From the NCBI RefSeq assembly GCF_003944795.1, contig NZ_RWBG01000001.1, positions 124,001 through 188,000 on the forward strand: DNA of 64,000 bases, read 5' to 3'. Below the pieces are notes generated by a model that saw nothing but the letters and a program-made list of their open reading frames with translations, ran no database searches and was not told where the DNA came from. The stretch is from Mangrovimonas spongiae. GTDB taxonomy: Bacteria; Bacteroidota; Bacteroidia; Flavobacteriales; Flavobacteriaceae. This document shows, piece by piece, positions 18,622 to 38,025 of the stretch (position 1 is its first letter; each line of letters opens with the position of its first letter). The translations under genes were made by a program, and so were the position numbers.

Positions 18622-20142
18622 CTAATTGCTTTTTACCAGTCTAATAGTTTCGCTACCTTTTTCAGTAGTAATCTTTGCAAAATATAAACCGTTAGGCAGT
18701 TCTTGTGCATCTATCGTGCTAATTGCAGTATTGGGCTTTAACGTAAATATGTTTTTGCCTAAGACATCCAATACTTGTATCTCAGACACAATAGCGTTTG
18801 AAACCACGTTCCAACTGTCTTTGGTTGGATTTGGGAATACTTTAAAATCAATGCTAGTAAACTCATCATTACTCAACACATTGGTAGTACTGAAGAATAT
18901 ATTATCAATAAATACAGTTCCGTTTCCAGTTACTAGAGTCTGAATAAGATCCGTACCATCCCAAGTCCCACTAACTAAAGCCGGAAAATTAGCAAAATGA
19001 TCTAACGGAATAAACACACTAACCCACTGACCCGTTTCCAAAGGTCCATCGACGCCAAATCTGAAAAATGGTTCTTCTGGGTTTCCACAACAAATGGTTG
19101 CGCTCAATGATTGGTCTACCAATGAAAAATTCCAAGCTGTGGATGTTGTAGCATAATAATTTAAGTGTACATAACTGTAAGTAGCTGTCGCGTTAAAGCT
19201 TTCACCAAATCCACTACCAAAGTAGTCTAAGTTCTCTGCTTTAAGTACAATGTCTCCATTTAAATCAGGCTGTGAGATAGTCACACTTCCTGCAAAATCC
19301 ACTAAATTAAACCCTGAAAAGTCTGATGAGTTAGGGTTACCGCTAAGTTCACTATAAATGTAAAAATCTGAACCTGTTGAACCATTGTTATCTGGACCAT
19401 CGGTTGGATCGGCTGGTGGGCAAGGCTCACAATTAGGCCCCCCACAATCGACTTGCTCCTCTCCATTGTTTAAGATGCCATCATCACAACTTTCTGGGCA
19501 AGGTGCACAATCTGGCCCACCACAATCTACACCCGTTTCATCACCATTTTGTACACCATCGTCACAAGTTGGTTCTGGAGCACCAACTTGCACAATATCA
19601 TCAATGTACCAAATACCACCATTACCTGCACCAACAGTTGTACAACTAGCACCTTCGCAAGCTGGATCATAATTTGGCTGTATCACAAGAGTTGTGTATT
19701 GTTCAGTTCCTGTTAGCCCAGGCTGATTTGAAAAATCGAAGATTACTTCTGTCCAAACATTTGCTGTTGATATAACAACATCTCTATTATAAGTTGGTTC
19801 AGAATTAAGACCTATTTGTATTTGAAATCTAATACTTTGATTGGCAATTGGTGCCCAAACCTTCATGGTAAATGCTGTTCCATTTGCTAAGTCAATAAAA
19901 ACAGAGCCCGGGGTTTCATATCCAAAACCAGCAAACCAGTCTGCTGCATCTGGCTTATTGACTTCCAAAACCCGTGATGACGTGTTTATTCCTGAAATAT
20001 CAGGGTTTGCTATGTTAGCATATCCCAGACTTCCAAATTGAAAATTTGCAGATGTAGTACCATCCTCAAAATCCAATGGTAGAGATTGACCAAACATCAC
20101 TGCGGATGAAAGGGTAAACACTATAAGTAAAATTTTTTTCAT
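18622..20142 (-). CDS. T9SS-secreted binding-type protein with duplicated Cys-rich motif
   Basis: The 506-residue protein has a signal peptide (ends near FGQS), a beta-sandwich module (about residues 22-187) ending IWYIDDIVQV, two copies of a 23-residue Cys motif (C193-C215 and C219-C241, pattern CDDGxxNxxExxxDCGGPxCxPC), a second beta-sandwich (about 250-425) ending VFIDNIFF, and a T9SS type A sorting domain (about 430-506; FPNPTKDSW, GLYFAKITTEKG). The beta-sandwiches resemble carbohydrate-binding modules and the fold of the binding lipoprotein encoded at 29868. No catalytic residues are visible, so surface glycan binding is the likely role. It lies 169 bp downstream of the glucan operon on the same strand with a terminator candidate between, so co-expression is not certain. 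Confidence 0.75.
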   Translation of the reverse strand: MKKILLIVFTLSSAVMFGQSLPLDFEDGTTSANFQFGSLGYANIANPDISGINTSSRVLEVNKPDAADWFAGFGYETPGSVFIDLANGTAFTMKVWAPIANQSIRFQIQIGLNSEPTYNRDVVISTANVWTEVIFDFSNQPGLTGTEQYTTLVIQPNYDPACEGASCTTVGAGNGGIWYIDDIVQVGAPEPTCDDGVQNGDETGVDCGGPDCAPCPESCDDGILNNGEEQVDCGGPNCEPCPPADPTDGPDNNGSTGSDFYIYSELSGNPNSSDFSGFNLVDFAGSVTISQPDLNGDIVLKAENLDYFGSGFGESFNATATYSYVHLNYYATTSTAWNFSLVDQSLSATICCGNPEEPFFRFGVDGPLETGQWVSVFIPLDHFANFPALVSGTWDGTDLIQTLVTGNGTVFIDNIFFSTTNVLSNDEFTSIDFKVFPNPTKDSWNVVSNAIVSEIQVLDVLGKNIFTLKPNTAISTIDAQELPNGLYFAKITTEKGSETIRLVKSN

Positions 20143-20311: not shown

Positions 20312-21226
20312 CTACAGTACCGAATTATCGACTTTTTGTGTTTTAAATTTCATATTCTCATTTTTGTCCCAAATACCCCAAAACGCACCAACGTCTCCTT
20401 CGGTTCCCACTTTCCAAGACTCATCAAAAGAAGAGAAATAAAACATTTCTATATCATCTTCCTTGGCCCATTTTTGAGCATTGATAAAATACTTGATGGC
20501 GTTCTCTTCTGATGGAAAGGCACCTTCCAAATTAGTACCTTGATTAGGCCAGCCCGTTTCAGAAATGATTACTTTCTTACCATTGGCGGCTCGTTTAGCC
20601 CTGTTGTACATATCTTTCATATACAATAGCGAATAGTCTTGGTCACAACCTTCCCAAAATGGATAGCAATTGGCCAAAATCACATCACAGGCTTCGGTAA
20701 TAGCAGGTCGCTCTGTAAATTCGTAATAAGCATCAACATAACCTACTGGCACGTTTTTAATGGATGCTTTGGCTCTGTAGATAAAATCCAATAGCTCATC
20801 TTCGGTCAAATCGCCTCTATACATTACCTCATTACCAACAGCAGCAATATCTACAGCACCACTTTTGCATAAATTGATTAAACCCAAAAGTTCCTTTTCA
20901 TTGATTTTTGGATCCTCACCAAGCCAAGCGCCAACCAGTGTTTTAATGCCATATTCTTTTGCTATTTGCGGTATGAGTTCGTTGCCTTCTGTTGTTGAGA
21001 ATGAGCGCACCCATTTGGTATAAGGCGCAATAATTTCCATTCGTCTTCTTATTTGGCTTTCTGATAGCTGGTCTCCTGGTTTTTGCCCTTCTTCATAAGG
21101 ACTAAAGCACAAACCGTGCATACCTTGATTCAAAAATCCATGAAACAGCTCTCTTAGTTCTTCTATGCTTTTATTGGTATAATCCATAGAAGCTAGTGCT
21201 AAAAATTTCTCGTTTCGTAACGACAT
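20312..21226 (-). CDS. Cytoplasmic GH17 beta-1,3-glucan-active enzyme
   Basis: The 304-residue protein is a GH17 (clan GH-A) barrel with acid/base Glu133 in AAVGNEVMY and nucleophile Glu223 in IISETGWPNQG, both in standard context. It has no signal peptide or lipobox, unlike the second GH17 of the locus, so it should act in the cytoplasm. GH17 enzymes hydrolyse beta-1,3-glucans, and some act as transglycosylases. Being the last gene of the operon, 23 bp after the permease gene, it probably trims imported oligosaccharides next to the phosphorylase. Exo, endo or transferase action cannot be told from sequence. Confidence 0.85.
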   Translation of the reverse strand: MSLRNEKFLALASMDYTNKSIEELRELFHGFLNQGMHGLCFSPYEEGQKPGDQLSESQIRRRMEIIAPYTKWVRSFSTTEGNELIPQIAKEYGIKTLVGAWLGEDPKINEKELLGLINLCKSGAVDIAAVGNEVMYRGDLTEDELLDFIYRAKASIKNVPVGYVDAYYEFTERPAITEACDVILANCYPFWEGCDQDYSLLYMKDMYNRAKRAANGKKVIISETGWPNQGTNLEGAFPSEENAIKYFINAQKWAKEDDIEMFYFSSFDESWKVGTEGDVGAFWGIWDKNENMKFKTQKVDNSVL

Positions 21227-21249: not shown

Positions 21250-22686
21250 TTATAATTCTCCTCTTCTCTTGACCAGGATAGCTTTAATTTCTCGTGCGCG
21301 GTCCTCGGTTAAAGTATATTTCCACATAACCCAAATGGCCAAGGCAGCTGTTAAGGCAGGTAAAGCAATATCTGTAATTCGCATTCCCGTCAGAGCTTCA
21401 GCCGTTTGCGTTGAAGCTGTTGGGTCGTAGCCTAAGACTTTTAATATTATTCCTGAAAAGACAAGCGCAATACCTTGTCCCACTTTTATCATCCACCAGT
21501 AAATGGCTCCAAAGGTGCCTTCCTTACGTGGCATTCCGTTTTCCAATTCATCTAAATCGCAAACATCGGCTGTCATACTCATCATTAAGGTAAACAAGCA
21601 CCCCATACCAAATGCCATTAGTGGAATTGGCAAGAAAATCATATAGTGATTTTCGGGATCGAAGCCCCACCATTTTAAAATATAACCTACGATTGAAATG
21701 GCAGTAGCGTAGATGAAAGCCTTTCGTTTTCCGAATTTATTGGCCATCCAATTGATAATAGGAATAGCAATAAAAGCAGTGTAAGCTGCAGTAACGGCAG
21801 GGAAAAGTGCCACCCACCATTTTGAAGCTCCCCAATCGCCGTCAAACATATAAAAGTTGATGATGAACACTCCAAATTCGGCAACAATCTGAAAGCCATT
21901 AAAGACCAAAAAAGTAGCTAAGCATAGTTTTACAAAAGGCTTGTTATTAAAAACTATTTTTATGCCTTTAAAGATTTTACCTATACTTTTAAAAACACTT
22001 TTTAAGGTAATATCCTCTCTACCTTCCATTTTACTAGCATCAATTCCTCTACAAAATATGGCAGGCAAAATACCTAGGGCAATAATCACAAAACCCGAAA
22101 TTAAAGCTACCGTACGCACACCTTCGGGTTGAGTGGTAAAAATATTCTTATCTGGTATAAGCACATATAAAAATGGCACCAACATCCAAGCAACTTGACC
22201 AATGGTGTTAGCAAAGCTCATAAGTCGGGTACGCTCGTTATAATCGGAAGTCATCTCATAGCCAAGTGCAATGAGTGGTGTGGAGAAAATGGTGTTTCCA
22301 AAAATCAAAAGGATTGAAAAAATTAACAAATACCAAAAATTATACATTTCAGGATTAGTGTCATATACTTGCCACAGGATGACAAAAATAATCCCAGTAA
22401 AAATCGCGCCAATAAAAATATAGGGGCGACGTCTTCCAAATCTCGAACTTGTATTATCAGAAACGTAACCCATAACAGGATCGGTTATAGCATCAAACAA
22501 ACGTGGAATTCCAACAATAAGCCCTGCCAACACGGTGTCCATTCCAAAACCATCGGCAGATTTAAGAATGACCACAAAAACCCCTAAAATTCCAGGAACT
22601 AGATTATTTATTAAATGTCCAGCACCAAAGGCCGCTTTTTGTCCGATAGGCACTTTATCTCTTGAGGCTGTGTTCTGATGTGACAT
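21250..22686 (-). CDS. GPH-family sugar:cation symporter (MFS superfamily)
   Basis: The 478-residue protein has about twelve membrane helices and GPH-family features: an N-terminal GQKAAFGAGHL, and RLFDAITDPVMGYVSDNTSSRFGRRRPY in loop 2-3 with the conserved Asp and Arg pattern of melibiose-carrier-type symporters. It imports glycosides across the inner membrane with Na+ or H+. Set between GH30 and GH17 genes (gaps of 10 and 23 bp), it probably carries beta-glucan oligosaccharides to the cytoplasmic phosphorylase and GH17. Confidence 0.9.
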   Translation of the reverse strand: MSHQNTASRDKVPIGQKAAFGAGHLINNLVPGILGVFVVILKSADGFGMDTVLAGLIVGIPRLFDAITDPVMGYVSDNTSSRFGRRRPYIFIGAIFTGIIFVILWQVYDTNPEMYNFWYLLIFSILLIFGNTIFSTPLIALGYEMTSDYNERTRLMSFANTIGQVAWMLVPFLYVLIPDKNIFTTQPEGVRTVALISGFVIIALGILPAIFCRGIDASKMEGREDITLKSVFKSIGKIFKGIKIVFNNKPFVKLCLATFLVFNGFQIVAEFGVFIINFYMFDGDWGASKWWVALFPAVTAAYTAFIAIPIINWMANKFGKRKAFIYATAISIVGYILKWWGFDPENHYMIFLPIPLMAFGMGCLFTLMMSMTADVCDLDELENGMPRKEGTFGAIYWWMIKVGQGIALVFSGIILKVLGYDPTASTQTAEALTGMRITDIALPALTAALAIWVMWKYTLTEDRAREIKAILVKRRGEL

Positions 22687-22696
22687 ATTATTTTTT

Positions 22697-24175
22697 TTAG
22701 TTTGTTAATACTAGTGTTTGTATGGCTTGTTTGTTAATTGAAATGTCTTTTGAGAGTTCGCCGAGAGTGATCGTGAACGATTTTTGGTGTTCGGTTGGGT
22801 TAAAGACCACAACGGCAATGGAATTATCTGGGTTTTGAACGGCTGCCACTTGCAGTTCTTCATCGGTATGCTTGACATCTACAACTTGGCCTCCTGGTCT
22901 CATATACTTACTAAAATGTACCATAGTATGATATAATGGCGTAAAATAGACCTCGTCGTTTTCGGGATCGACAATCACTGGTGCTACACACCAGTTCTTG
23001 AACCAGTTGGGGCCACCTTGCCTGTCCAAAACCATATTCCAATCTACCCAACCATCAACCCAATTGTTCAAGCAACCAATAATATCTCTTGCATAGCGAT
23101 GTACGGGAACATATTTTGGGTGTAGATATTTTTCATCCTCAGCAGCCCAATCCCATCCCCAATCGGTGGCTTCCTTGCTCCAATACCAGTCATCGTCTTT
23201 CCAATGTGGCACTTCAGCATCGATGCAGCCTTCAGTTTCAATAAGATACTTGTTGGGTGCTTTTTTATGTGCATATTGCAAATCTTCTGGAAAAACTTCA
23301 AAAGTGCTTTCGTACCAATGAATGGCTGTCCCATCGTAATATTTAGAGCTTTCCTCGGTAGCAAACATCACATCTACCCATTCTTTTAAGCCAGCTCTAT
23401 TTTGGTCGTAACCCAAAATAATCTTATCGCCATAACCGTCAGTTTCCAGTTTTGGCCCTAAATGGTTAACTACAAAGTCTGTCATTTCCTCTGGTGTAAA
23501 ATGCATACTTTCCCAGTTGTTGCCATTACCATGGGGTTCGTTTTCTACCGTAAAGCCCCAAATATCTATACCTTCTGCTTTGTAGGCCTCTAAATATTTT
23601 GAAAAAAACAGTGCCCAAGTATCATAATATTCAGGCAAGAGCTTTCCGCCAACCCAATGGTTATTGTCTTTCATCCAAGGTGGTGCGGTCCAGGGCGAAG
23701 CAAAGAGTTTAAACCCGTCTTCTGAAGTTTGCATTGCCGCCTTTATCATTGGGATCAAATCTGCTTTATCTTCCTTGACCGAAAAATCCTTAAGCGCCTT
23801 GTCTTTGGTTGGCGCATAAGAATATTGGCTTAGCGAAAAGTCGCAAGAATTCATATGCGTTCTGCATAACGAATAATTGGCGCCTTCTTTACCAAAATAA
23901 GCCTGTATGATTTTTTTGCGATTGTCTTTACTCAGCTTGTTCAACAAATACGCTGAAGACTCAGTAAACGCACCTCCAAAACCTGTAATGGTTTGAAACG
24001 TTTTGTCTGGATTTAGCTGTATAGAGCTTTTGTCTTCCTGAACGGAAAACGTAGTCAGTCTCGTTAATTTATTCCCGTTTGAAGCTGTTTCAAAAACGTC
24101 TATTTGGAGGGATTTTTCTTTTGAACAAGCACTCATAATTATTGCAGCAATTAGTATGTAAGCGTTCTTAAACAT
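22697..24175 (-). CDS. GH30 lipoprotein glucanase
   Basis: The 492-residue protein has a lipobox (MSAC, Cys17), the GH30 N-terminal FQTITGFGGAFTESS, acid/base Glu213 in FTVENEPHG, and nucleophile candidate Glu315 in LIETEGC (matching the SEAC context of GH30 enzymes). The C-terminal beta domain ends normally. GH30 members near laminarin genes are typically beta-1,6-glucanases or beta-glucosidases, fitting removal of beta-1,6 branches. As a lipoprotein it acts on the cell surface or in the periplasm. It lies 4 bp after the GH17 lipoprotein gene. Confidence 0.9.
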   Translation of the reverse strand: MFKNAYILIAAIIMSACSKEKSLQIDVFETASNGNKLTRLTTFSVQEDKSSIQLNPDKTFQTITGFGGAFTESSAYLLNKLSKDNRKKIIQAYFGKEGANYSLCRTHMNSCDFSLSQYSYAPTKDKALKDFSVKEDKADLIPMIKAAMQTSEDGFKLFASPWTAPPWMKDNNHWVGGKLLPEYYDTWALFFSKYLEAYKAEGIDIWGFTVENEPHGNGNNWESMHFTPEEMTDFVVNHLGPKLETDGYGDKIILGYDQNRAGLKEWVDVMFATEESSKYYDGTAIHWYESTFEVFPEDLQYAHKKAPNKYLIETEGCIDAEVPHWKDDDWYWSKEATDWGWDWAAEDEKYLHPKYVPVHRYARDIIGCLNNWVDGWVDWNMVLDRQGGPNWFKNWCVAPVIVDPENDEVYFTPLYHTMVHFSKYMRPGGQVVDVKHTDEELQVAAVQNPDNSIAVVVFNPTEHQKSFTITLGELSKDISINKQAIQTLVLTN

Positions 24176-24179
24176 TGGT

Positions 24180-25463
24180 TTAGTGAGTTGCTAATTTTTT
24201 TCTTTGAACAGGCATTTCTACCGTTTTCATTAGTTCTTCGGTATTGCCATCAAACGTTTTTACTATTGGTTTTCCATCACGAGACAAGCCTTTAAAAACA
24301 TGATCATCAACAGATTGCCAAAGCGCATATTTTGCTTTTCCATCTACGGTAAACAAGCCAAAATGATTCTCCGAACCTTTATCATTTTGGGCATCTTTCC
24401 AAGGCTCGTCAAAAGCTTCAAAATAGAAACAGGAAATCCCTTCCTTATTGGTCCAATCTCGCATGTTGTGATAGTAAAGCGCTTGTTTGTATTCGTCTGT
24501 TGCTTTTGAACCATTTGAGCCATAATGGCCGTTTGAAATCGACGCCCATCCTGTTTCGCCAATATGGATTTGTTTTGTAGAATCCACACTGTGGACATAC
24601 TTTGAAACGTTGTGGTATTGGTTTTGGGCAAACGTAATGGCACGTTGCATCGCAGCTTCAATCTTTTGCTGGCTTGAAAGGGTTTTTTCTTCGTCGTCAA
24701 TTCCCCAAAATTGTGGATTGTAATGGGTGTTATGATACGGGTAGGTATGCATCGATATAAAATCGACAGCTTTAATGAGTTGTTCCAAATCTTTATTATG
24801 ATAGCTCTTATCGCCTCCGCCCCAAGACGCAAAATCGTCTGAACTGGTAACCCATAGATCTTTGGGCAGCTTACCCTCTTTCTTTAGGTTTTGTAAATGG
24901 TTAACCCATTTTAAAATTACGTTGGGTTGCACATAATAAGTGGTTGCCCATCGTACCATAGCTTCGTTACCTACGGCTATTATTTTTATGATATCTGGAT
25001 ATTGATTGGCCAAATCGACTGCACGCTTAATTTCGTCAGCATTTTTTTCACTCTCTACAGAGTGGTCTGGCTCTAAATTGGTCCAAGCATTTTTGCAATC
25101 TATCCAAGCACCAAGCATTACGTACATCTCAAAGGTTTTATCTTCCTTTTTTAACTGCGTAATGGCTTTCATTAGGTTTGAGGCCTGAGCCAATTGCACG
25201 TTGTAAGTTCTCAGCACTTTAATGTTTAAAGCTTTAAGAATTTTTAAATCTTCTTTTATCTGTGTTACCGTTGGCTGATATTCTCTAGAAGTTTTACGAT
25301 AACCTCCATAGGAAATAGCTTGATAGTCTGGATTGCCTAGGATCTCTTTTGCAGTCATACGTTTTGTAGGTTGGGTTGGTGATTGCGTTTCTTTATCTTT
25401 TTTACAGGACAAAACACTTAGCAAAAAAGCCATTATTACTGTTATGTACCGTAGTGTTTTCAT
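24180..25463 (-). CDS. GH17 lipoprotein beta-1,3-glucanase
   Basis: The 427-residue protein has a lipoprotein signal (LLSVLSC, Cys20, then KKDKE), a GH17 barrel with acid/base Glu167 in AVGNEAMVRW and nucleophile Glu303 in IHIGETGWAS, and SYGGYR near residue 51. It should be an envelope-anchored enzyme cutting beta-1,3-glucan chains. It is the third-from-last extracytoplasmic step of the operon and lies 4 bp after the phosphorylase gene. Insertions around residues 240-300 make it longer than the cytoplasmic GH17, so the two have probably diverged in substrate length preference. Confidence 0.9.
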   Translation of the reverse strand: MKTLRYITVIMAFLLSVLSCKKDKETQSPTQPTKRMTAKEILGNPDYQAISYGGYRKTSREYQPTVTQIKEDLKILKALNIKVLRTYNVQLAQASNLMKAITQLKKEDKTFEMYVMLGAWIDCKNAWTNLEPDHSVESEKNADEIKRAVDLANQYPDIIKIIAVGNEAMVRWATTYYVQPNVILKWVNHLQNLKKEGKLPKDLWVTSSDDFASWGGGDKSYHNKDLEQLIKAVDFISMHTYPYHNTHYNPQFWGIDDEEKTLSSQQKIEAAMQRAITFAQNQYHNVSKYVHSVDSTKQIHIGETGWASISNGHYGSNGSKATDEYKQALYYHNMRDWTNKEGISCFYFEAFDEPWKDAQNDKGSENHFGLFTVDGKAKYALWQSVDDHVFKGLSRDGKPIVKTFDGNTEELMKTVEMPVQRKKLATH

Positions 25464-29018: not shown

Positions 29019-29849
29019 TTATTTACTGTAGACTCGCACGTAATCTACTAGCATTTGCTGTGGAAAAACCGTGTTTTCATTAGGTACGCCACCATAATTG
29101 CCACCAACAGCCACATTCATAATAATGTAAAAAGGCTGGTCGTTAAAAATCCAGTCGCCGGGAATATCATTTGGTGTTAATTGATTATAAAGCACGTCGT
29201 CTACATAAAAGTTAATGTAGTTTTCGTCCCATTCAATGCCAAAAACGTGAAATCCAGTATCAAACCTATCGTTGACCAAATCATAAAGCTTGGTCACAGA
29301 TTCGCCTCCAGAATAGCCTGGGCCGTGAATGGTACCATTAACTATGGTTGGTTCGCTACCACGATTTTCCATAATGTCTATCTCGCCACAAGCAGGCCAG
29401 ATGACCTCATCAGAATTAGCTCCCAACAGCCAAAATGCTGGCCAAAGACCTTGACCCCAAGGCAATTGTATGCGAGCCTCGAAGCGACCGTACTTTTGCT
29501 CAAACAAATCTTTGGTATTGATTCTTGCCGAAGTGTAAGACGCACCTTCGTAAGATTCGCTTAGTGCAGTTATTTTCAGCATTCCATCTTCAACTACAAT
29601 GTTATCAGTTCTATCTGTGTAATACTGCAACTCGTTGTTCCCCCAACCTGGTATGCCTTGTTCTGAACCGTTCCCCATATCGTAATTCCACAGTGTGGCA
29701 TCTGGAGCACCATCGACATCAAATTCATCAGCCATCACCAAGTTATCCATCGTAGTGACTATTTGCGTATCGTCTGTTGAGCAGCCCATAATTATTAGAC
29801 TTGAAAAGCTTAACAATACTAAATTATGTTTGTATGATAAAAACTTCAT
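29019..29849 (-). CDS. GH16 lipoprotein laminarinase
   Basis: The 276-residue protein has a lipobox (IIMGC, Cys23) and a compact GH16 jelly roll with the catalytic signature Glu156-Ile-Asp158-Ile-Met-Glu161, in the EIDIMEN form typical of beta-1,3(4)-glucanases. WPAFWLLG and the terminal VDYVRVYS are also typical. It is likely an endo-acting enzyme on the cell surface that makes the first cuts in beta-1,3-glucan. It is separated by 18 bp from the binding lipoprotein gene upstream and by 107 bp from the phosphorylase gene downstream. That gap (28912-29018) could hold a processing site or an internal promoter; nothing clear is visible. Confidence 0.9.
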   Translation of the reverse strand: MKFLSYKHNLVLLSFSSLIIMGCSTDDTQIVTTMDNLVMADEFDVDGAPDATLWNYDMGNGSEQGIPGWGNNELQYYTDRTDNIVVEDGMLKITALSESYEGASYTSARINTKDLFEQKYGRFEARIQLPWGQGLWPAFWLLGANSDEVIWPACGEIDIMENRGSEPTIVNGTIHGPGYSGGESVTKLYDLVNDRFDTGFHVFGIEWDENYINFYVDDVLYNQLTPNDIPGDWIFNDQPFYIIMNVAVGGNYGGVPNENTVFPQQMLVDYVRVYSK

Positions 29850-29867: not shown

Positions 29868-31793
29868 TTAATTGTGAAAGTAAACGTTATCGATAAACAC
29901 ATCTGTAACCTCATAAGGTTGTCCCACAAAAATGTACTGGGCAATATTTGCAGTTGAGGTCAGATTGGTGAAATCTGACAATGGTATATCTAAACTTACC
30001 CATTCGCCTTGAGCTAGAGCATTAATACTGATTTCGTGCTCAGTATCATCGCCACCACCAAAGGCATTATCGGCTCCAAAATCTACCAACTTAATGTTGA
30101 AAGACGTAAAGTCTGGCGACCACACATCCATATGAAAATGCGTCATTGCAGAAGCATCAACCGTTGTGCTTACCGTTTCTACGCCTACAAATCCTAAATT
30201 GGTGTATTTTTTTGTTGGGTTGCCATCAACATCAACATCATCCAAAATAGTTGCTGCCGCAGACCAATCGGTACGCCAAGTATCTACGGTAACATTTGTA
30301 TACACATCGCTAAACAACGAAATTACATTTGCTGCTGCCAATGTTGGATCTGGTGCCGCAACCGTTGGCGAAGTTGGTACTTGGTAGAAATAGATATTGT
30401 CTGCATAAAAATTGGTTAAGTTGGTGCCTAAGTTTTCATAAATAATAAGGCCCATGCTATCCTTGTTTGCCAAAGACAAGGGCATATCGATGCTTGCCCA
30501 ACCGCCATCAACCAAATTGCTGCTGTTAAGTGTGAATTCTTGATTGGTATCATCTGTACCACCATCTACACCATCAGCTCCAAAATCCCTTAGCGTAATT
30601 TTTAGTTGTGCACCAGCATCGAGAACTGGAACAAAAATATCGAAATGCACGTGAGTCATTTCTGAAGCATTTACAGTAGGATTGCTAAAGCTAGTTCCCA
30701 CAAAATTGAAGTTTGTATAGTTGAGTACATTATCACCATTTACCGTAAAATCGGCAGATTCTGTAGTTTGATAAGGTTCCCAATAGCCATTATAAAAATC
30801 TACTGGAACATTGGTATAAGCATCACTAAATATGGATATTACCAACGACTCGTCTTCAGTAGGAACAGGAGCTGCTGTGAAATTACCCAAAGACTCCAAG
30901 GTTAATGAACCTTCGGCATCAACACCTGCTACAGTAGCGGTTATTGTTGTCATTCCACTTCCAATTACTGAGACTGTACCCTCTTCTGAAACTGTGGCTG
31001 TACTTGGGTTTGAAGATTGAAAATTAAAATAAGCAGGTGCTGCAACAACCGTTACATCTTCTCCAGTACCTAGATTGTAGGTCTGGGATAAGCCTGTAAC
31101 ATTTGCCAATGCTCCGATAAAAGTTTGCTCAGATACATCATTACCTTCCAATATTTTTGGTCTTGGTTGTGCAACCGTTCCCAATTTTTCAAATTTTATT
31201 TCGTCTAACCAAATGGTATAGCCAAACCCTCCCGTGTTTTGCGTTCCGGTAGCATATCTAAACACGCCTCTTACTTCTGTCAATTTTGAAGGATCTGGAA
31301 TTGGAACTACATATTTTTCCCAAGCTGTTCCAACACTCACATTAGTAAGTGTTACTTGATAAGCATTATCAATAAAATCTTCTCCAAAACCAATTTGATC
31401 GAGTATGATTCCTTGAGAAGCTTTGGCATAAAAGGTTAAGGCATCATAGCCAGAGAGATCCCTGCCTGCACCATCAATTCTAAAAATACCGCCGGCGTAA
31501 TTTCCATCGGGATTGTCGGCATTTGGAACATTAATTTCAAGTGAAGCGTTGCCACTGTAAGCCTCTGTGCCCTCAAAGTTTATAACTTCTAAATTTGAAT
31601 CGCCGTAGGGAAAATAAAAATCGGTACCTAAGCCAACTGGTGCATCCAGAAACACATCTCCTAAGGTAGAAAAGTTGGCTTCTACCGCATCGTCTGAAAG
31701 ATCTCTTTCGCAACCAAACGCAAAGACTAGTAATAATCCAAGCAAAAGTGCTCTGTTTCGTGTATTTACTGTTCTATTTTTCATTTTTGCCAT
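29868..31793 (-). CDS. Multidomain glycan-binding lipoprotein with duplicated C-terminal modules
   Basis: From the ATG at 31793 the protein has 641 residues. A lipoprotein signal ends at FAFGC. Next come a beta-sandwich of CBM type (to about residue 205, ending IWLDEIKFEKL), a bacterial Ig-like (BIG2) domain (about 235-300; SSNPSTATVSEEGTVSVI), and two homologous beta-sandwich modules (about 315-485 and 495-641). The last two share AxxVIS-F-D-YTNVxVD near their start, TH-HxD, xLxDFGAD and a terminal Y/FxDNxYF, so they arose by duplication. No catalytic motif is present. It probably holds laminarin at the surface, playing the part of SusE/F-type proteins. A TTG at 31808 would overlap the upstream gene; the ATG 4 bp after that gene's stop is preferred. 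Confidence 0.8.
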   Translation of the reverse strand: MAKMKNRTVNTRNRALLLGLLLVFAFGCERDLSDDAVEANFSTLGDVFLDAPVGLGTDFYFPYGDSNLEVINFEGTEAYSGNASLEINVPNADNPDGNYAGGIFRIDGAGRDLSGYDALTFYAKASQGIILDQIGFGEDFIDNAYQVTLTNVSVGTAWEKYVVPIPDPSKLTEVRGVFRYATGTQNTGGFGYTIWLDEIKFEKLGTVAQPRPKILEGNDVSEQTFIGALANVTGLSQTYNLGTGEDVTVVAAPAYFNFQSSNPSTATVSEEGTVSVIGSGMTTITATVAGVDAEGSLTLESLGNFTAAPVPTEDESLVISIFSDAYTNVPVDFYNGYWEPYQTTESADFTVNGDNVLNYTNFNFVGTSFSNPTVNASEMTHVHFDIFVPVLDAGAQLKITLRDFGADGVDGGTDDTNQEFTLNSSNLVDGGWASIDMPLSLANKDSMGLIIYENLGTNLTNFYADNIYFYQVPTSPTVAAPDPTLAAANVISLFSDVYTNVTVDTWRTDWSAAATILDDVDVDGNPTKKYTNLGFVGVETVSTTVDASAMTHFHMDVWSPDFTSFNIKLVDFGADNAFGGGDDTEHEISINALAQGEWVSLDIPLSDFTNLTSTANIAQYIFVGQPYEVTDVFIDNVYFHN

Positions 31794-31797
31794 TTTT

Positions 31798-34700
31798 TTA
31801 TTTTCCAATATTGATATGCACGTAGGTTCTTATTTCCCATTCTGATCCATTAGGAAACCCTACTGGACTTAGTGGAGGCACTCCAAATTCTGGGCCTTGC
31901 AAAGGCGCATATCTTGGAGAGTACTCATTTAACGATCGCCAAGTATACCTCAAACCTATAGTGGTATTTGGTAATATAAACCAATCTGGTTTACCAAGAG
32001 AAGTAGAAATATCTGCCATAAATTGAACTGGGAATGTTAGGTTGAAATCCCTATGATAGTCAAAAGGTCCCCAATCGTTAATTTTTAAATGTGTTTGAAA
32101 CTTCATTTTCTTGTATATGGCTCTTACATCGCCACCAAATCGGTAAATTGTTCTGTCTGAATCACCATTGCCTTGACCATTTCCATAGTAAAAATTTCCT
32201 ATCAACCCTAAATCTGGGGAGACCTTGGAAACCATTCTAGAATGTACTTCCCATAGGTCTTCTGCTGGCACAGAGTTAGTAAACGCAAAAAACGTACGGT
32301 TAGCTAAAAACCCTATGTGAGCATCCATAGCTGTTGGGTGATGCCTGTAAACAAACCCTAGGTTCATGGCAAATTTTGCGTCTTCAGCTCTGTCATTGTC
32401 CCATTGGTACATCCAAGTTCCTGGTGTTGGATCGTAGGTTAGCAAAAGCTCTCCAGCTGTAGTTTCTCTGTTTGATCTTACCGCAAACGGATCGTCTATG
32501 ACATTTCTTAATCGACCAGGTGCATTAACATCATTTGGCATTGGATCAACCAATGGTTTTTGCCATAAAAAGTTGGGTGCAACTTGAATGTCTCCAAAAG
32601 AATAGGTAAAGCCAGAAAGTATATTGGTTTGGTTACCGCTTCCTGTATCTTTAAGCCTCCATCCCGTAAAGGTTTGTGTAGCATCTGCACCGCCATTGGC
32701 AACCAATCCCATTATGGCACCTTGACCATACCAATTGAATCGACCTCCTTGATAAGTGATTTTTGCTTTCCCTCCCCAATTATCGCTTGATTTTATTTTA
32801 TCTTCATAAACAACTCCATTTTTAATATCTTGGAAAGCACTACCATTTAATGGACTTCCTCCCCAAATACCACCAACAGTCACGCCTACTTTACCAAAAT
32901 CTCTTTCAATGGCAAGCGTGGCTCTTTCGGTTGGCCAAGGTGGTATTATACCACTTCGCGCTTGGTTTTGATCAATGATTCGTCTTCCGTTATCATCAAA
33001 ATTCAAGTCTGTTTCTACGTCTCTGTGATAAATTCCTGTAACATTGAAATGTCCAAACTTTCGACCGTACTTAAAAAGCATTGCTGGATTTGCACCCCAC
33101 CACAATTGAGGTCCAAAAGCTGCTTTTAAGCCGTCTAGGCCACGTTTCATATCTACTTCTACTCCTGAAATCTCACCACCATAAATATCTAGGTTTGGGC
33201 CATAATTGGCTTCAGGATAAAGGCCGAAAAAATCGCCTTCGTACTGCCAGTGGTAGTGCCCTGTTCTGTAAAATCCTCTTAAATCAAAATGTTTGGATTT
33301 CCATTCAAAATCACTTTGATAAATGTTGAGCCTGTTGTTATCTTGTAGGGTAACTTCACCTTCGCTAGTTGAAAGGGTTACTATTCGCGCTCTATTTTCA
33401 TAAAAAATTTCATCTATTGGGTTTTGTGCCACTCTACCTATGTAATTAACCACAACATTGGCTCTCATGTTTGGGGTGGGGTTGGCCTCCACTCCCACAA
33501 AATACGATTGCATATGGTCGAACCCTAATTGGTCTGGGTACACATTTTCATTGGGGTCGGCGTTTTCGGGCGTGGTGATTAAACTTCCACCTGTGTTGAA
33601 TGTTGTGAATTTAGCTTGCAACTGACTTAGCCTTATTTTGCCCGTTTCTTTAGCTTCAAGTGCTGCTTTATCACCTCGCGCTCTTAATACAGCATCCATA
33701 ATTTGGATGTTGTTGAAATAGTTGGTCACAAATCCGGCTGTTACAGTGTCATCATAAGGGTTTAACTTATGTGCTTCCTTTAAGGCGTAATAGGCTGCTC
33801 TTGGATATAATTCGTAAAGGCCTCTTTCGTTGGTCGGCCCTTTTGCACAAATACCAAACCACTCTTCATTCATGTTATTTTCGCCTGGAGCAAGGTCTAT
33901 GTCGTAGCCTCCATTTGCCCAAGAAGCATTGTTATCGTGAATATCGGCATTTTCACGCTTATCAAACCCATACTTCCACCAGCCATCGCTGAATTGAAAC
34001 GTAAAGCCACCAATGGAGTTTTCTGCCCTGCCCAAACCTGCGGCATTTTGATAAATTTCCTTCCAGTTGCCAAGCATATAGTAAGCTTGTGCTTTTTGAT
34101 CTTCTTGATTTTCTATGGCATTAAATGCATCGGCTCCAAATTCTGTGAACATTAATGGTTTGTTGAGTTTTTCCTTGACCACATCAAACATATCGGTAAA
34201 CGACACACCTCTATATACATTGGTCCCATAGATGTCTATGTCTGGGCATTCTTCTGCAATAATGTCTATAAACAAGACATCTCCGTTACAGATAGCAACT
34301 GGATGATTAGCATCCATGGCTTTCATTTTTTTGGCAGCATCGTTCATTAACTTGTACATTGGTCTTCCTCTTGACTCGCCTATAAATGCTTTTTGAGATT
34401 CATCATCTGGAAAGTCCTCAGTTTCGGCACCTTGCCAAAACAAACCATAGTTGTTTTCGTTTCCTAATAAATACATTAACAAGCCTGGTGTGTCTTTATA
34501 CGTTTTGACCAACATCTCTATTTCACTTAAAAGAAGTTGCGATGTTTTGGGATCGTCATAAATGGTAATGGGCGTCCAAACGCCATCTATAGTTAAGCCA
34601 TAACGTCCAAAAGAGTGGTTAAGCATCGTGTAAATGCCATATTTCTCATAGATATATTTTATCCATCTTGCTGGCACACCCGTATACTGTCTTATGACAT

Positions 34701-34962
34701 TTACTCCCATGTTTTTAAGCAAGGACATTTCGGTATCTAGACCTGCTTTAATGACATCGTCAGATTTTTCCCAAAACTTGGCATCTATTGTATTAGTGCC
34801 AATTGGAATATAGTCCCAGTTCATACCATTAATCATAAAAGCTTCACCATTTACCATAAGTTTTACTCCATCGTTATCGTTGAGCACCGAGACGTTATCA
34901 GATTGGGCAAAAACTGTAAAGGAACACGCTATAAGCAAGTATTTGAATATGTGTTTTCTCAT
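31798..34962 (-). CDS. Clan GH-A glycosidase fused to an outer-membrane-barrel-like domain
   Basis: The 1054-residue protein has a signal peptide (ends about residue 20, FAQS). A TIM-barrel glycosidase of GH2/GH5-like type follows (about residues 33-400): FMINGMNWDY, VNVIRQYTGVP, acid/base candidate Glu169 in LLGNENNYG, and nucleophile candidate Glu274 in LMFTEFGADAF. After a linker comes a roughly 560-residue region (about 480-1054) of alternating polar and aromatic segments typical of outer-membrane beta strands (YFVGVEANP, FNVTGIYHR, ILSGFTYSF, TIGLRYTWRS, WEIRTYVHINIG). No TonB box or plug domain is seen. It is the first gene of the glucan operon. I infer a surface glycosidase tethered to, or forming, an outer-membrane pore. 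The barrel reading rests on pattern only. Confidence 0.7.
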   Translation of the reverse strand: MRKHIFKYLLIACSFTVFAQSDNVSVLNDNDGVKLMVNGEAFMINGMNWDYIPIGTNTIDAKFWEKSDDVIKAGLDTEMSLLKNMGVNVIRQYTGVPARWIKYIYEKYGIYTMLNHSFGRYGLTIDGVWTPITIYDDPKTSQLLLSEIEMLVKTYKDTPGLLMYLLGNENNYGLFWQGAETEDFPDDESQKAFIGESRGRPMYKLMNDAAKKMKAMDANHPVAICNGDVLFIDIIAEECPDIDIYGTNVYRGVSFTDMFDVVKEKLNKPLMFTEFGADAFNAIENQEDQKAQAYYMLGNWKEIYQNAAGLGRAENSIGGFTFQFSDGWWKYGFDKRENADIHDNNASWANGGYDIDLAPGENNMNEEWFGICAKGPTNERGLYELYPRAAYYALKEAHKLNPYDDTVTAGFVTNYFNNIQIMDAVLRARGDKAALEAKETGKIRLSQLQAKFTTFNTGGSLITTPENADPNENVYPDQLGFDHMQSYFVGVEANPTPNMRANVVVNYIGRVAQNPIDEIFYENRARIVTLSTSEGEVTLQDNNRLNIYQSDFEWKSKHFDLRGFYRTGHYHWQYEGDFFGLYPEANYGPNLDIYGGEISGVEVDMKRGLDGLKAAFGPQLWWGANPAMLFKYGRKFGHFNVTGIYHRDVETDLNFDDNGRRIIDQNQARSGIIPPWPTERATLAIERDFGKVGVTVGGIWGGSPLNGSAFQDIKNGVVYEDKIKSSDNWGGKAKITYQGGRFNWYGQGAIMGLVANGGADATQTFTGWRLKDTGSGNQTNILSGFTYSFGDIQVAPNFLWQKPLVDPMPNDVNAPGRLRNVIDDPFAVRSNRETTAGELLLTYDPTPGTWMYQWDNDRAEDAKFAMNLGFVYRHHPTAMDAHIGFLANRTFFAFTNSVPAEDLWEVHSRMVSKVSPDLGLIGNFYYGNGQGNGDSDRTIYRFGGDVRAIYKKMKFQTHLKINDWGPFDYHRDFNLTFPVQFMADISTSLGKPDWFILPNTTIGLRYTWRSLNEYSPRYAPLQGPEFGVPPLSPVGFPNGSEWEIRTYVHINIGK

Positions 34963-35223: not shown

Positions 35224-38025
35224 TTATATGCCCAAAATGTAATTGGTTAAGCTAGATTCGTGGTCTAGATTCATTTTTTTTCTTAATCTGTAGCGTTTAA
35301 CCTCTACGCTTTTTACAGAAATGTTTAGTAGCGGAGCTATTTCTTTGGATGATAAGTTAAGTCTTAGGTAGGCACACAACTTTAAATCGTTTGGAGTTAA
35401 GTTGGAGTGTTTTGCTTTTAGGTTTTTTAAGAAATCCTTATCAGCATTGTTAAACGCTTCTTCAAAAAACTTCCAGTCGTCTGTGTTGTTCAAATTTTTG
35501 TCTACTAAACGCACAACTGGTTTTACATCCTTTACATCTTTGACTTGGTTTAATTCTCCTTTAATAAGATTAAGAAATTCGTTCTTTTTAATTAAGCTCA
35601 TAGTAGAAATGGCCAACTCACGGTTTTTGTTCTCTATATCTTGCTCTAACTTTTCGTTCTTAAAGCGCATGGCTTGTTGCTGGTTTTCCAGTTGTTTTAA
35701 TTCCAATTTACGCGCTGCTTCTGTTAGTAGCTTTTTTTGTTTTTTCCTATAATAAAATCTATATATGTTGTGCATTAGCAAACTAAATAGCAGAAGCCCT
35801 AACAGGTAAAAAAACATGGCCACATTACTTTTATAAAATGGCTTTTCTATCTTAAAGCTGTACGAAGCTTCGTTGGAGGATAGCGTATTCCCTACTTTTG
35901 CCCTAACTTTAAAAGTATAATTTCCCGATGGTAAATTTTCGAAGCTATGTGACGTTTCTGTTGACCAATTGGACCAATCTTTGTGCAAGCCTTCTAGTTT
36001 ATACTGGTATTTGGGTTGATAATAGGTGTTAAACAACGGAATGCTGTATTCCAAATGAAAATAATTGTTTTTATACTTAAAGTCTTGGGATTGTATTTTA
36101 TCTAATAAGCTATAGTTGGCATTGGCTGCCTTACTGGATATTTTATTTATGCTTATTGCATACTGATAATCGTCTATTTTATTGGTTTCCAACACAACAT
36201 AACCATAAGATGAACCAACTAAATAATTGTTTTTACTTATCTTGCTTATGTTTTCGTAACCTGATAATTCGTCTCCAAATGAGCTTGGAAAAACAATACT
36301 CTCAATTTTTGGGTTGTTATCAAAACTGCCTTTGGAAATGGCATAAATATAATCTGTACCAAAAGCCCATAGTTGATCATCCTCTTTAATTGCAATAAGC
36401 TTACCAGATGTATACTCAAAATCTTTGTAAATGCTACTTAAAGTGGCATCTTTAACAAAGGTATCTTGTTTAGAGTTGTACTTAAAAATCCCATACTTAT
36501 AAGCATAATAAATGGTATCATTAAATTTTACTAAGCTTGAATTTACGCCTTTACTTACTCCAGGAGCTTTCCCAAAATGAACGACATTCATAAAATTCGC
36601 ATCCAACTCAACTTTAAATACGCCTTTGTATTCGTGGCTTACAAACAACAAGCGCTCACCAGCATATTGAACATGTTTGGAGGATATATTAAAACCGTTA
36701 ATTTTATTTCTTAAAAACCAGGTATTATCATCCTGCTTTTCCAATACAAACAAACCGCTATAGTTACCTTGCAAAATAAGATTATCATTTAACGGAGTGA
36801 AATCCCAAGTACCATTTTCTTGTGAAATTAGTTTTGAAGTGCTCCCTTCTATAATATAAGTGCCATTATGATGGCCACAAAAAAGCGTATTATCTATTTC
36901 TTTTAAACTCCATACTTGCCCTTTGGTTCCTTCAATAAACTTGAAAGACCTTTTAGTGTTTTGCTTTTTATAAAATAGTCCTTGGTTAGTCCCTACATAT
37001 AGGTTGCCGTTAAAAACTATGGAAGCATAAGTAGTTCCTATAATACCCTGATAATCATTATAGATTTTAAATGGAGAATCAAAGTCAATCATGTTTAGGC
37101 CGTTATCCAAACCTAACCAAATATTACTTTCATCATCTTCAAAAACGCTTAATACTGTGTTGTTACTTAAGCCGCTTAATTGGTTGATTTCATATAGTAT
37201 TTCGCCTTTTTTATCAACAATTAGAACACCATTGGAAATGGTTCCTAAAACAAAGGAACCATCTTTTAACCGCTTGCAACTATACACACTTTTTAAATCC
37301 AAAGCTTTGTTAGCAGCAATATTCCATTTATTCAATTGGTTGTTGTCAAGCCAATAAAAACCATTGTCCTGGGTTAGAAAAAGTAATTTTGAGTCAATGT
37401 AGAAGATGTCAACAACTATTTTTTCTTTCAATACAGCATGATCTGAAATCAAGTTTGCCTTGCCATTGTTAACCTCAAAAAACCCTTTACCCAAACCCTG
37501 AAAATAAATGGTCTCATTGGCATTAAAGGCTTTATTGAGTCTAGTTTCTGAATCAATTATATCTATATTATTATCTTTAGTATCATAAACATAAAGCCTG
37601 CTAAGTGATTGAAAAATCACCCATTTGTCGATTTTCAAAATGTTCCAAAACTCTTCATCTTCGAGAAGTTTACTAGCAATCTTGTTTGATAATGAAGTAT
37701 AATCTAAATTGCCAAAATTGTTTTTTTGCCAATAGCCAAACTCCATATAACATCCTGAAAATATTTTATCTCCAATAACTTTAACCGATCTAACAATAGA
37801 CTCGTTTGGTGAGGGATATAACTGCCATTTGGCACCATTGAACTCCAGTAACCCAGAATTGTTAGCCACATAAATAAACTTATCTTGACTTTGACTTATC
37901 GCCCAATTTTGCGCTTCGGCTTTGTAGGTTTTGGGTTGAAAGATGCTTATTGGCGGGATTTCTTGTGCAGATGTGTACACAAACACAAATAAATATAAAA
38001 GGAATAATAGCTCTTTTTTCTGCAC
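35224..38025 (-). CDS. Membrane-bound propeller/YYY-domain LuxR-type regulator
   Basis: The 933-residue protein has a signal peptide (ends near TSAQE), a long extracytoplasmic part made of beta-propeller repeats (two-component-regulator type; e.g. VLSVFEDDESNIWLGLDNGLNMIDF), a YYY-type immunoglobulin-like domain (about 650-730; YQYKLEGLHKDWSNW, NYTFKVRAKV), one membrane helix (about 737-760), a coiled coil, and a C-terminal LuxR-like helix-turn-helix (about 870-933; LSSKEIAPLLNISVKSVEVKRYRLRKKM). There is no kinase or receiver domain, so it joins sensing and DNA binding in one chain. It sits directly upstream of the glucan operon on the same strand and is its likely regulator, sensing a glucan oligosaccharide. 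Confidence 0.85.
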   Translation of the reverse strand: MQKKELLFLLYLFVFVYTSAQEIPPISIFQPKTYKAEAQNWAISQSQDKFIYVANNSGLLEFNGAKWQLYPSPNESIVRSVKVIGDKIFSGCYMEFGYWQKNNFGNLDYTSLSNKIASKLLEDEEFWNILKIDKWVIFQSLSRLYVYDTKDNNIDIIDSETRLNKAFNANETIYFQGLGKGFFEVNNGKANLISDHAVLKEKIVVDIFYIDSKLLFLTQDNGFYWLDNNQLNKWNIAANKALDLKSVYSCKRLKDGSFVLGTISNGVLIVDKKGEILYEINQLSGLSNNTVLSVFEDDESNIWLGLDNGLNMIDFDSPFKIYNDYQGIIGTTYASIVFNGNLYVGTNQGLFYKKQNTKRSFKFIEGTKGQVWSLKEIDNTLFCGHHNGTYIIEGSTSKLISQENGTWDFTPLNDNLILQGNYSGLFVLEKQDDNTWFLRNKINGFNISSKHVQYAGERLLFVSHEYKGVFKVELDANFMNVVHFGKAPGVSKGVNSSLVKFNDTIYYAYKYGIFKYNSKQDTFVKDATLSSIYKDFEYTSGKLIAIKEDDQLWAFGTDYIYAISKGSFDNNPKIESIVFPSSFGDELSGYENISKISKNNYLVGSSYGYVVLETNKIDDYQYAISINKISSKAANANYSLLDKIQSQDFKYKNNYFHLEYSIPLFNTYYQPKYQYKLEGLHKDWSNWSTETSHSFENLPSGNYTFKVRAKVGNTLSSNEASYSFKIEKPFYKSNVAMFFYLLGLLLFSLLMHNIYRFYYRKKQKKLLTEAARKLELKQLENQQQAMRFKNEKLEQDIENKNRELAISTMSLIKKNEFLNLIKGELNQVKDVKDVKPVVRLVDKNLNNTDDWKFFEEAFNNADKDFLKNLKAKHSNLTPNDLKLCAYLRLNLSSKEIAPLLNISVKSVEVKRYRLRKKMNLDHESSLTNYILGI

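Follow-up and report, generated by a model that had tools for sequence, protein, structure and literature searches.

A predicted glucanase–outer-membrane-barrel fusion in beta-1,3-glucan loci of Bacteroidota as a possible counterpart of SusC and SusD

How a glycan locus that holds no SusC/SusD pair might take up its substrate is the question raised by a gene cluster of the marine flavobacterium Mangrovimonas spongiae (NCBI RefSeq assembly GCF_003944795.1, contig NZ_RWBG01000001.1, positions 124,001 to 188,000 of the forward strand; this whole stretch of 64,000 nucleotides is the window, and coordinates are given within it). At 31798-34962 the cluster carries a gene that a first-pass annotation, made from the sequence alone, described as a clan GH-A glycosidase fused to a barrel-like part without a plug, heading a glucan operon in place of SusC/D and cutting its substrate at the mouth of the pore. 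Structure prediction, profile searches of each half and a comparison of related loci were used to examine it. The protein is predicted to join a GH158-like glucanase to a plugless outer-membrane barrel, the fusion is widely kept in Bacteroidota, and the comparative evidence suggests that in beta-glucan loci it can substitute for SusC/SusD.

Architecture of the fusion protein

The gene gave a single match in its own genome (2.77 Mb), and its product was divided as follows.

31798..34962, minus strand: fusion protein of 1,054 aa from the ATG, with signal peptide, GH-A glucanase, linker and predicted outer-membrane barrel
33748..34905, minus strand: GH158-like (clan GH-A) catalytic domain, about residues 20-405 (Pfam Glyco_hydro_2_C; GH158 fold match)
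34456..34458, minus strand: E169, predicted acid/base (N168-E169), aligned with the GH158 NE motif and invariant in 101 sequences
34141..34143, minus strand: E274, predicted nucleophile, aligned with GH158 TEFG/TEWG and invariant in 101 sequences
33637..33747, minus strand: linker, residues 406-442, a helix of low confidence in the structure models, with a partly conserved L-x-ARGDKAAL
31801..33636, minus strand: predicted outer-membrane barrel, residues 443-1054, with 24 long strands counted and no plug (model and structure matches)

A full-length model was built from an alignment of 43 sequences, including 42 of the 80 best loci described below (pLDDT 66.5, pTM 0.48), and its best Foldseek match was GH158 (1.1e-11). 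The VIA list of this model covers the enzyme half only; the barrel was folded and searched separately. The five highest rows of the list were all GH158 (Z 23.9-22.3; top row with a root-mean-square deviation (rmsd) of 3.1 over 252 aligned residues, about 19% of them identical), and the next family was GH35 (Z 21.0). Profile alignments, of which several pieces were weak singly, place E169 on the NE motif and E274 on the TEFG/TEWG motif of the GH158 structures 9oro and 6pal, and N168, E169 and E274 were invariant across 101 fused sequences. The alanine mutants N136A, E137A and E220A of BuGH158 (PDB 6pal) are reported to be inactive, and the same report places an Ig-like domain where the barrel follows in the present protein (PMC7157763). 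The profile sequence match to GH158 was marginal (E 0.011 for 9oro and 0.014 for 6pal, with a beta-galactosidase ahead at 0.0032), and for this reason the enzyme is named GH158-like. Pfam found one domain on the fusion, Glyco_hydro_2_C (residues 34-285, E 8.6e-06), the GH2 TIM-barrel model PF02836 scoring 25.5 bits against a cut-off of 21. In GH2 enzymes, N-terminal sugar-binding and Ig-like domains precede the TIM barrel. Two such domains are mentioned for a GH2 in the BuGH158 paper (PMC7157763). Pfam, read to E up to 1, found neither in the fusion, whose enzyme domain follows directly after the signal peptide. GH2 was dropped as a family name because these domains are missing and GH158 stands higher in fold, although beta-galactosidase remains above GH158 by sequence. 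On its modelled fold, the assignment of the enzyme half to clan GH-A holds, closest to the GH158 endo-beta-1,3-glucanases and with a matching catalytic pair, the same two Glu residues that the first-pass annotation had picked out.

For the C-terminal half, a separate model of residues 402-1054 was built with 76 relatives (76 of the 80 best loci; pLDDT 72.3, pTM 0.71). The model contains 30 strand elements, of which 24 were counted as membrane strands and six short ones inside loops were excluded. Every match in the Foldseek and VIA rows displayed was an outer-membrane barrel, bacterial or mitochondrial: the best Foldseek matches were BtuB3G3 (8.9e-10), MOMP (2.1e-08), AlgE (3.6e-08) and chitoporin (2.0e-07), and VIA, with rmsd values of 4-9 overall, gave AlgE (Z 15.2, rmsd 6.7, 316 aligned), OprD-type porins (14.9) and the PapC and FimD ushers (Z 14.0 and 13.9), the ushers being aligned from about model residue 37 or 41 to the end. 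These matches support the outer-membrane-barrel class for the modelled domain, and no particular family. The alternation of hydrophobic and other residues within strands was 0.424, compared with 0.230 +/- 0.036 after shuffling, and none of 5,000 within-strand shuffles was as high. By sequence, Pfam (E up to 1) left the last 600 residues without a match, NCBIfam gave a weak TonB-receptor match only (residues 720-790, E 0.014, far under the cut-off), no relative was found in the PDB by profile search (best E 1.1, an antibody chain), and the genome held no paralogue of the barrel at E up to 10. SusC and other TonB-dependent transporters have a 22-strand barrel. The Plug domain PF07715 had no match in the fusion, in a search whose filters remove the majority of matches weaker than E 0.1 and which found 24 Plug matches elsewhere in the genome as a control. 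The C-terminal part, previously a judgement from pattern and put at about 560 residues, is thus about 612 residues long (443-1054) and is predicted by its model to be a plugless outer-membrane barrel.

The side of the membrane on which the enzyme sits was assessed from the strand connections. The 12 gaps from odd to even strands measured 19, 36, 29, 7, 30, 25, 27, 30, 28, 7, 17 and 29 residues, and the 11 from even to odd strands 5, 3, 6, 2, 2, 3, 2, 20, 2, 2 and 9. Since in outer-membrane barrels the long loops face outwards and the short turns face the periplasm, both barrel ends and the enzyme would be periplasmic, save in the case that the linker runs through the pore. The four copies of the enzyme that stand free, in loci without the barrel (L120, L121, L151 and L152), have by eye ordinary signal peptides and no lipobox, and Pfam found no tail of the type IX secretion system (T9SS) in the three that were scanned (all but L152); such enzymes should therefore stay periplasmic. 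A lipobox-like cysteine near the start was seen in 1 of 101 fused proteins (L068). Taken together, the modelled strands and the signal peptides of the free enzymes suggest that the enzyme lies on the periplasmic side and that cutting at the inner mouth is likelier than at the surface, so that the enzyme-barrel of the first-pass annotation is kept and the side at which it would cut is changed. Only one of the inner turns is long (residues 844-863); some of its positions are invariant (DPTP, W, D, EDA), and it may contact the enzyme, and the ARGDKAAL linker helix could possibly be an element of the pore lumen or mouth.

Conservation and spread of the fusion

Related loci were collected by a scan of GTDB contigs that returned at least 564 relatives among at least 585 pattern matches, of which the best 80 were kept. 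The fusion was present in all 80, a figure that favours fusions because the relatives were ranked by their match to the whole protein. Within a sample of 395 genomes of the order, 71 matched at 1e-3: 17 had full fusions, two had the enzyme only (G201, G334), and in the remaining 52 only portions of the enzyme half matched, and more weakly. A sample of 397 genomes of the family gave 86 matches at 1e-60, and in 78 of these a single match ran over at least 989 of the 1,054 residues. The other eight comprised four in which a frameshift, unread bases or contig ends split the match (G447, G486, G524, G677), one cut by a contig end with SusD upstream (G435, locus L150), and three from which the barrel was missing (G201, G568, G620). 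When the barrel alone was used as query on 395 genomes of the phylum, 35 matched, 33 of them in an open reading frame (ORF) of at least 1,028 aa and two in short or interrupted ones (G959, G858); the full barrels outside the family were 54-64% identical, and no intact barrel without the enzyme was seen among these matches. The fusion is widely kept, in its own family and in ten other families of Bacteroidota, at least eleven in all.

Conservation was scored on 101 rows (the window protein, the 80 best loci and 20 loci of other families), after repeated genomes, L123 and copies that did not span residues 60-1040 in one frame had been dropped. The 20 loci represent ten families and were picked for spread from 30 such barrel-matching genomes. 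The fraction of positions at least 95% identical was 0.443 for lumen-facing residues (n=131), 0.387 for long loops (n=284), 0.390 for the enzyme (n=400), 0.268 for short turns (n=56), 0.184 for the linker (n=38) and 0.164 for lipid-facing residues (n=140). In a separate alignment of 133 rows, duplicates included, which also gave the per-strand values, mean identity to the window protein was 0.784 for the enzyme and 0.728 for the barrel across the 80 best loci, and 0.618 and 0.596 across the 20 other-family loci. Loops as fixed as an enzyme domain exceed the needs of a mere anchor, which supports, and does not prove, a further role of the barrel; the argument from the lumen is tempered in that soluble-facing residues are often more conserved than lipid-facing ones.

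Some more distant or damaged frames were also encountered. Free-standing frames of about 330-345 codons in L101-L109, many with lipoprotein-like starts by eye, are 26-28% identical to the enzyme half and are possibly its sister group. A 1,093-aa frame (L122:7559-10837, genome G093) contains in its middle part a sequence distantly related to the enzyme half and had no barrel match. Two fusion copies (L153:8180-11328 and L154:3166-5648) are broken by frameshift or unread bases, through either assembly error or decay.

The locus, its lipoprotein and SusC/SusD

The fusion gene lies among the following genes of the window.

35224..38025, minus strand: Y_Y_Y/LuxR-type regulator, upstream neighbour of the fusion (Pfam PF07495, PF00196)
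29868..31808, minus strand: partner lipoprotein, lipobox with C-ERDLSDD, Big_2 and weak CBM_11; putative surface glycan-binding protein
29019..29849, minus strand: GH16 beta-glucanase-like enzyme, the sole PF00722 match in the genome
25468..28920, minus strand: GH149 1,3-beta-glucan phosphorylase (NCBIfam NF058639, 1803 bits, cut-off 1150)
24180..25463, minus strand: GH17 glycosidase (Pfam PF00332)
22697..24175, minus strand: GH30 (Pfam PF02055, 249 bits; best NCBIfam match an endo-1,6-beta-glucanase, below cut-off)
21250..22686, minus strand: GPH/MFS sugar symporter (Pfam PF13347)
20312..21226, minus strand: second GH17 (Pfam PF00332)
18622..20142, minus strand: protein with a T9SS C-terminal sorting domain (Pfam PF18962), operon membership uncertain

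The fusion is thus the first enzyme gene of a beta-glucan locus, as proposed, and it does not strictly head the cluster, since the regulator gene lies upstream on the same strand; inspection by eye of the region 5′ of the fusion gave no convincing match for a promoter. Read from its TTG start, the lipoprotein gene overlaps the fusion ORF by 11 bases, and from the next ATG it starts 4 bases past the fusion stop. Pfam gave only Big_2 and the weak CBM_11 on the lipoprotein, and no SusD domain. The lipobox pattern was present in 89 of 99 partner lipoproteins, and C-E/D-R plus an acidic pair in 38 of 40 starts inspected. In surface lipoproteins with an export signal, a polar or basic residue and an acidic pair stand close behind the lipobox, as in SDDFE of Flavobacterium, and position matters (PMC5080379); the starts of the partner lipoproteins resemble it, with their acidic pair (CERDLSDD in the window) some residues farther from the Cys than in the published export signals. 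By these sequence features the partner is putatively a surface glycan-binding protein. Across the 80 best loci, many of which end early, the lipoprotein was found in 78, GH16 in 75, the LuxR-type regulator in 71, GH149 in 57, GH17 in 50, GH30 in 34 and GH3 in six; the two loci lacking the lipoprotein (L057, L078) lie on contigs that end soon past the fusion. All 54 full-length (23 kb) loci had both the lipoprotein and GH16, with LuxR in 51 and GH149 in 49, and the 20 other-family loci had the lipoprotein (20), GH16 (20), GH149 (17), MFS (12) and LuxR (1). In sum, the lipoprotein accompanied 99 of the 99 fused loci not cut off, each at 158 bits or more, and none of the four barrel-less loci (best partial match 99.8 bits).

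SusC and SusD were sought with local hidden Markov models (HMMs) built from the proteins of these loci, over about 8-10 kb on each side. In the control loci of the same genome (L111-L119), the SusC HMM found 7 of 9 (L112 and L119 were missed) and is broad, since most of these loci hold other TonB receptors; the SusD HMM found the one SusD locus. The 80 best loci gave SusC in 22, SusD in 23 and either in 24, at least two of them (L018, L024) far off on the other strand, and the 20 loci of the ten other families gave neither. No SusD match was obtained in the window with the local HMM. Its one SusC-HMM match is a TonB-dependent receptor (15028-17286; CarboxypepD_reg_2 and Plug), on the opposite strand past the far end of the operon. 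The genome's one match to PF07980, the SusD model searched, adjoins SusC, SusE, an alpha-amylase, GH65 and LacI, an alpha-glucan locus. The window locus therefore lacks the pair, as the first-pass annotation had it; the broader idea that the fusion always replaces SusC/D was rejected, because SusC or SusD also occurs in 20 of the 54 full-length loci.

The four loci that have the enzyme and no barrel offer a natural comparison, with SusC/SusD present in three of them. In L120 and L121, SusC, SusD and surface-type proteins lie just upstream and GH149-, GH17- and MFS-type genes downstream (by size, position and partly Pfam). In L151 (9379-11436; 685 aa) the fusion partner of the enzyme half is a GH16 domain and not the barrel, and a 1,142-aa ORF of GH149 size follows; SusC/SusD were not seen within the fetched stretch, which stops short on the upstream side. 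In L152, SusC/SusD lie nearby in a different arrangement, and there is no GH149-length ORF. The four rows do not group on a quickly made tree of the enzyme half, built from 106 rows and rooted for drawing only, and the supported branches force at least three changes. L120, with the enzyme alone and SusC/SusD adjoining, is sister to L123 of the same genus (SH-aLRT 99), which has the fusion and in whose 19 kb no SusC/SusD was found; L121 and L151 have long branches, and their placement is unsure. The simplest reading of the tree would be repeated loss of the barrel and lipoprotein where SusC/SusD is present. Thus far, what we regard as good comparative evidence from sequence suggests that in beta-glucan loci the enzyme-barrel can take the place of SusC/SusD. 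The two systems are alike in that an outer-membrane barrel gene lies beside a lipoprotein gene in a glycan locus, and they alternate between the close relatives L120 and L123; they differ in that the fusion has neither plug nor SusC match and has the enzyme built in, and in that its lipoprotein is of the Big_2/weak CBM_11 kind and not SusD.

Proposed uptake mechanism and alternatives

We propose, with a probability of roughly 60%, that the fusion is an enzyme-pore for the uptake of beta-1,3-glucan (laminarin), in which the barrel-enzyme and the lipoprotein do the work of SusC and SusD. The surface lipoprotein (29868-31808) would catch the glucan, or fragments of it made by GH16, and the barrel, with no TonB plug, would pass it through the outer membrane. 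At the periplasmic mouth the GH158-like endo-beta-1,3-glucanase would cut the arriving chain, so that the products are trapped, and the enzyme may also help to close the wide pore. The products would then be shortened by GH17 and GH30, carried into the cytoplasm by the GPH/MFS symporter and phosphorolysed there by GH149. A further version, which we hold tentatively and at somewhat less than even odds, is a TonB-independent importer of glycan in the outer membrane that uses hydrolysis in place of an energised plug, the inner-mouth glucanase both closing the large pore and pulling the glucan in by cutting it, with the dedicated surface lipoprotein as a lid.

Several points weigh against an enzyme-pore of this kind. 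A wide pore without a plug would be hazardous unless closed. The models are of moderate confidence (pLDDT 72 and pTM 0.71 for the barrel, 66.5 and 0.48 at full length) and do not fix the relative placement of the halves; TM-scores of the barrel to known barrels are low (0.24-0.44 in the Foldseek rows shown), and strand 1 alone lacks the alternation (0.35/0.34), for which reason the count of 24 strands is not firm. SusC or SusD stands beside the fusion in the 20 full-length loci mentioned, 18 of which have both, within a search of about 8-10 kb to each side, and the TonB receptor at 15028-17286 could in principle serve uptake in the window. Fused loci with and without SusC/SusD are intermixed around the window gene on the tree, and its nearest rows include four with the pair (L003, L004, L008, L014); since near relatives carry it, the window locus may have lost a pair that others keep. 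Finally, the comparison of 99 loci with four for the lipoprotein ignores shared ancestry, and two of the four barrel-less rows are long-branched.

Among the alternatives, the barrel could belong to an autotransporter-like surface enzyme, with a helix threading the lumen, the glucanase outside, the barrel serving for secretion and anchoring, and another porin for uptake. The passenger-helix-barrel order fits this arrangement, with helices 409-417 and 421-440 of the full model just before strand 1 and the partly conserved ARGDKAAL stretch in the pre-barrel helix region. Classical type V autotransporters, however, have a 12-strand C-terminal barrel, compared with about 612 residues and 24 model strands (at moderate confidence) here; the long loops and lumen are strongly conserved, and the free enzymes that lack a lipobox and, in the three scanned, a T9SS tail should stay in the periplasm. 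We consider this arrangement unlikely. Tethering alone, whereby the barrel would anchor a periplasmic glucanase and oligosaccharides would enter through general porins or another receptor, agrees with the ability of SusC/SusD loci to dispense with the barrel and with the presence of both systems in 20 of 54 full-length loci. It is doubtful to a greater degree, as near-invariance is far more frequent at lumen-facing than at lipid-facing positions (0.443 vs 0.164), and barrel loss accompanies lipoprotein loss with SusC/SusD present in three of the four cases, as for a replaced function.

Two remaining explanations concern the nature and direction of the domain itself. Another kind of all-beta domain, and not a barrel, would account for the missing sequence family match, the low TM-scores and strand 1, but it is opposed by the structure matches, the overall alternation and the asymmetry of the gaps, and we take it to be highly improbable. 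Glucan export or cell-surface glucan remodelling, in the manner of AlgE, PgaA and BcsC, would fit the top VIA row, the alginate exporter AlgE (in effect tied with the OprD-type porins), and the order of a polysaccharide-handling N-terminal periplasmic domain and C-terminal outer-membrane porin described for PgaA and BcsC (PMC9384988). The N-terminal domain of these proteins is a TPR (tetratricopeptide repeat) scaffold and not an enzyme, the porin has 16 strands, and the direction is export and not import. As the scanned neighbours of the fusion are degradative enzymes, a phosphorylase and a symporter, with no synthase among the ten proteins scanned, export can be given hardly any credence.

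The enzyme-pore reading would bear on how uptake loci are recognized. Laminarin, an abundant algal polysaccharide, is described as a leading marine energy source (PMC13188888). SusC/SusD are used to define uptake loci, clusters without susCD being called 'CAZyme clusters' (PMC10108472); if the enzyme-barrel is an importer, some of these are full uptake systems. If true, a TonB-independent enzyme-pore would be a second, non-homologous answer to the problem solved by SusC/SusD, in at least eleven families of Bacteroidota, and glycan uptake by a Gram-negative cell without TonB energy would become testable on one gene.

Word searches of open-licence papers found no description of a glycosidase–outer-membrane-barrel fusion, and traces of the gene may be present under other names. 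A laminarin polysaccharide utilization locus (PUL) of Muricauda has a 'GH2 beta-glycosidase' clustered with LuxR, GH16, GH149 or GH3, GH17, GH30_1 and MFS (PMC13188888), and this is probably the fusion gene, as judged by the shared neighbours and not by sequence. Strain 2012CJ35-5 of that paper is the source of our locus L010, on a contig that differs from the accession printed there; the main text describes the gene only as GH2, and a look through it for 'TonB' and 'porin' gave neither word. In a bloom study a 'GH0' lies beside GH149 in laminarin PULs (PMC10108472), and it may be the enzyme half. The GH17-MFS fusion of Formosa, from laminarin loci of a related kind, likewise unites a transporter with a laminarin-degrading enzyme in a single chain; its transporter is an inner-membrane MFS protein, with no outer-membrane barrel (PMC6246565). 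A 789-aa protein of the barrel-less locus L151 (2113-4482) starts like the local MFS symporters and is long enough for a further domain, as in the Formosa fusion.

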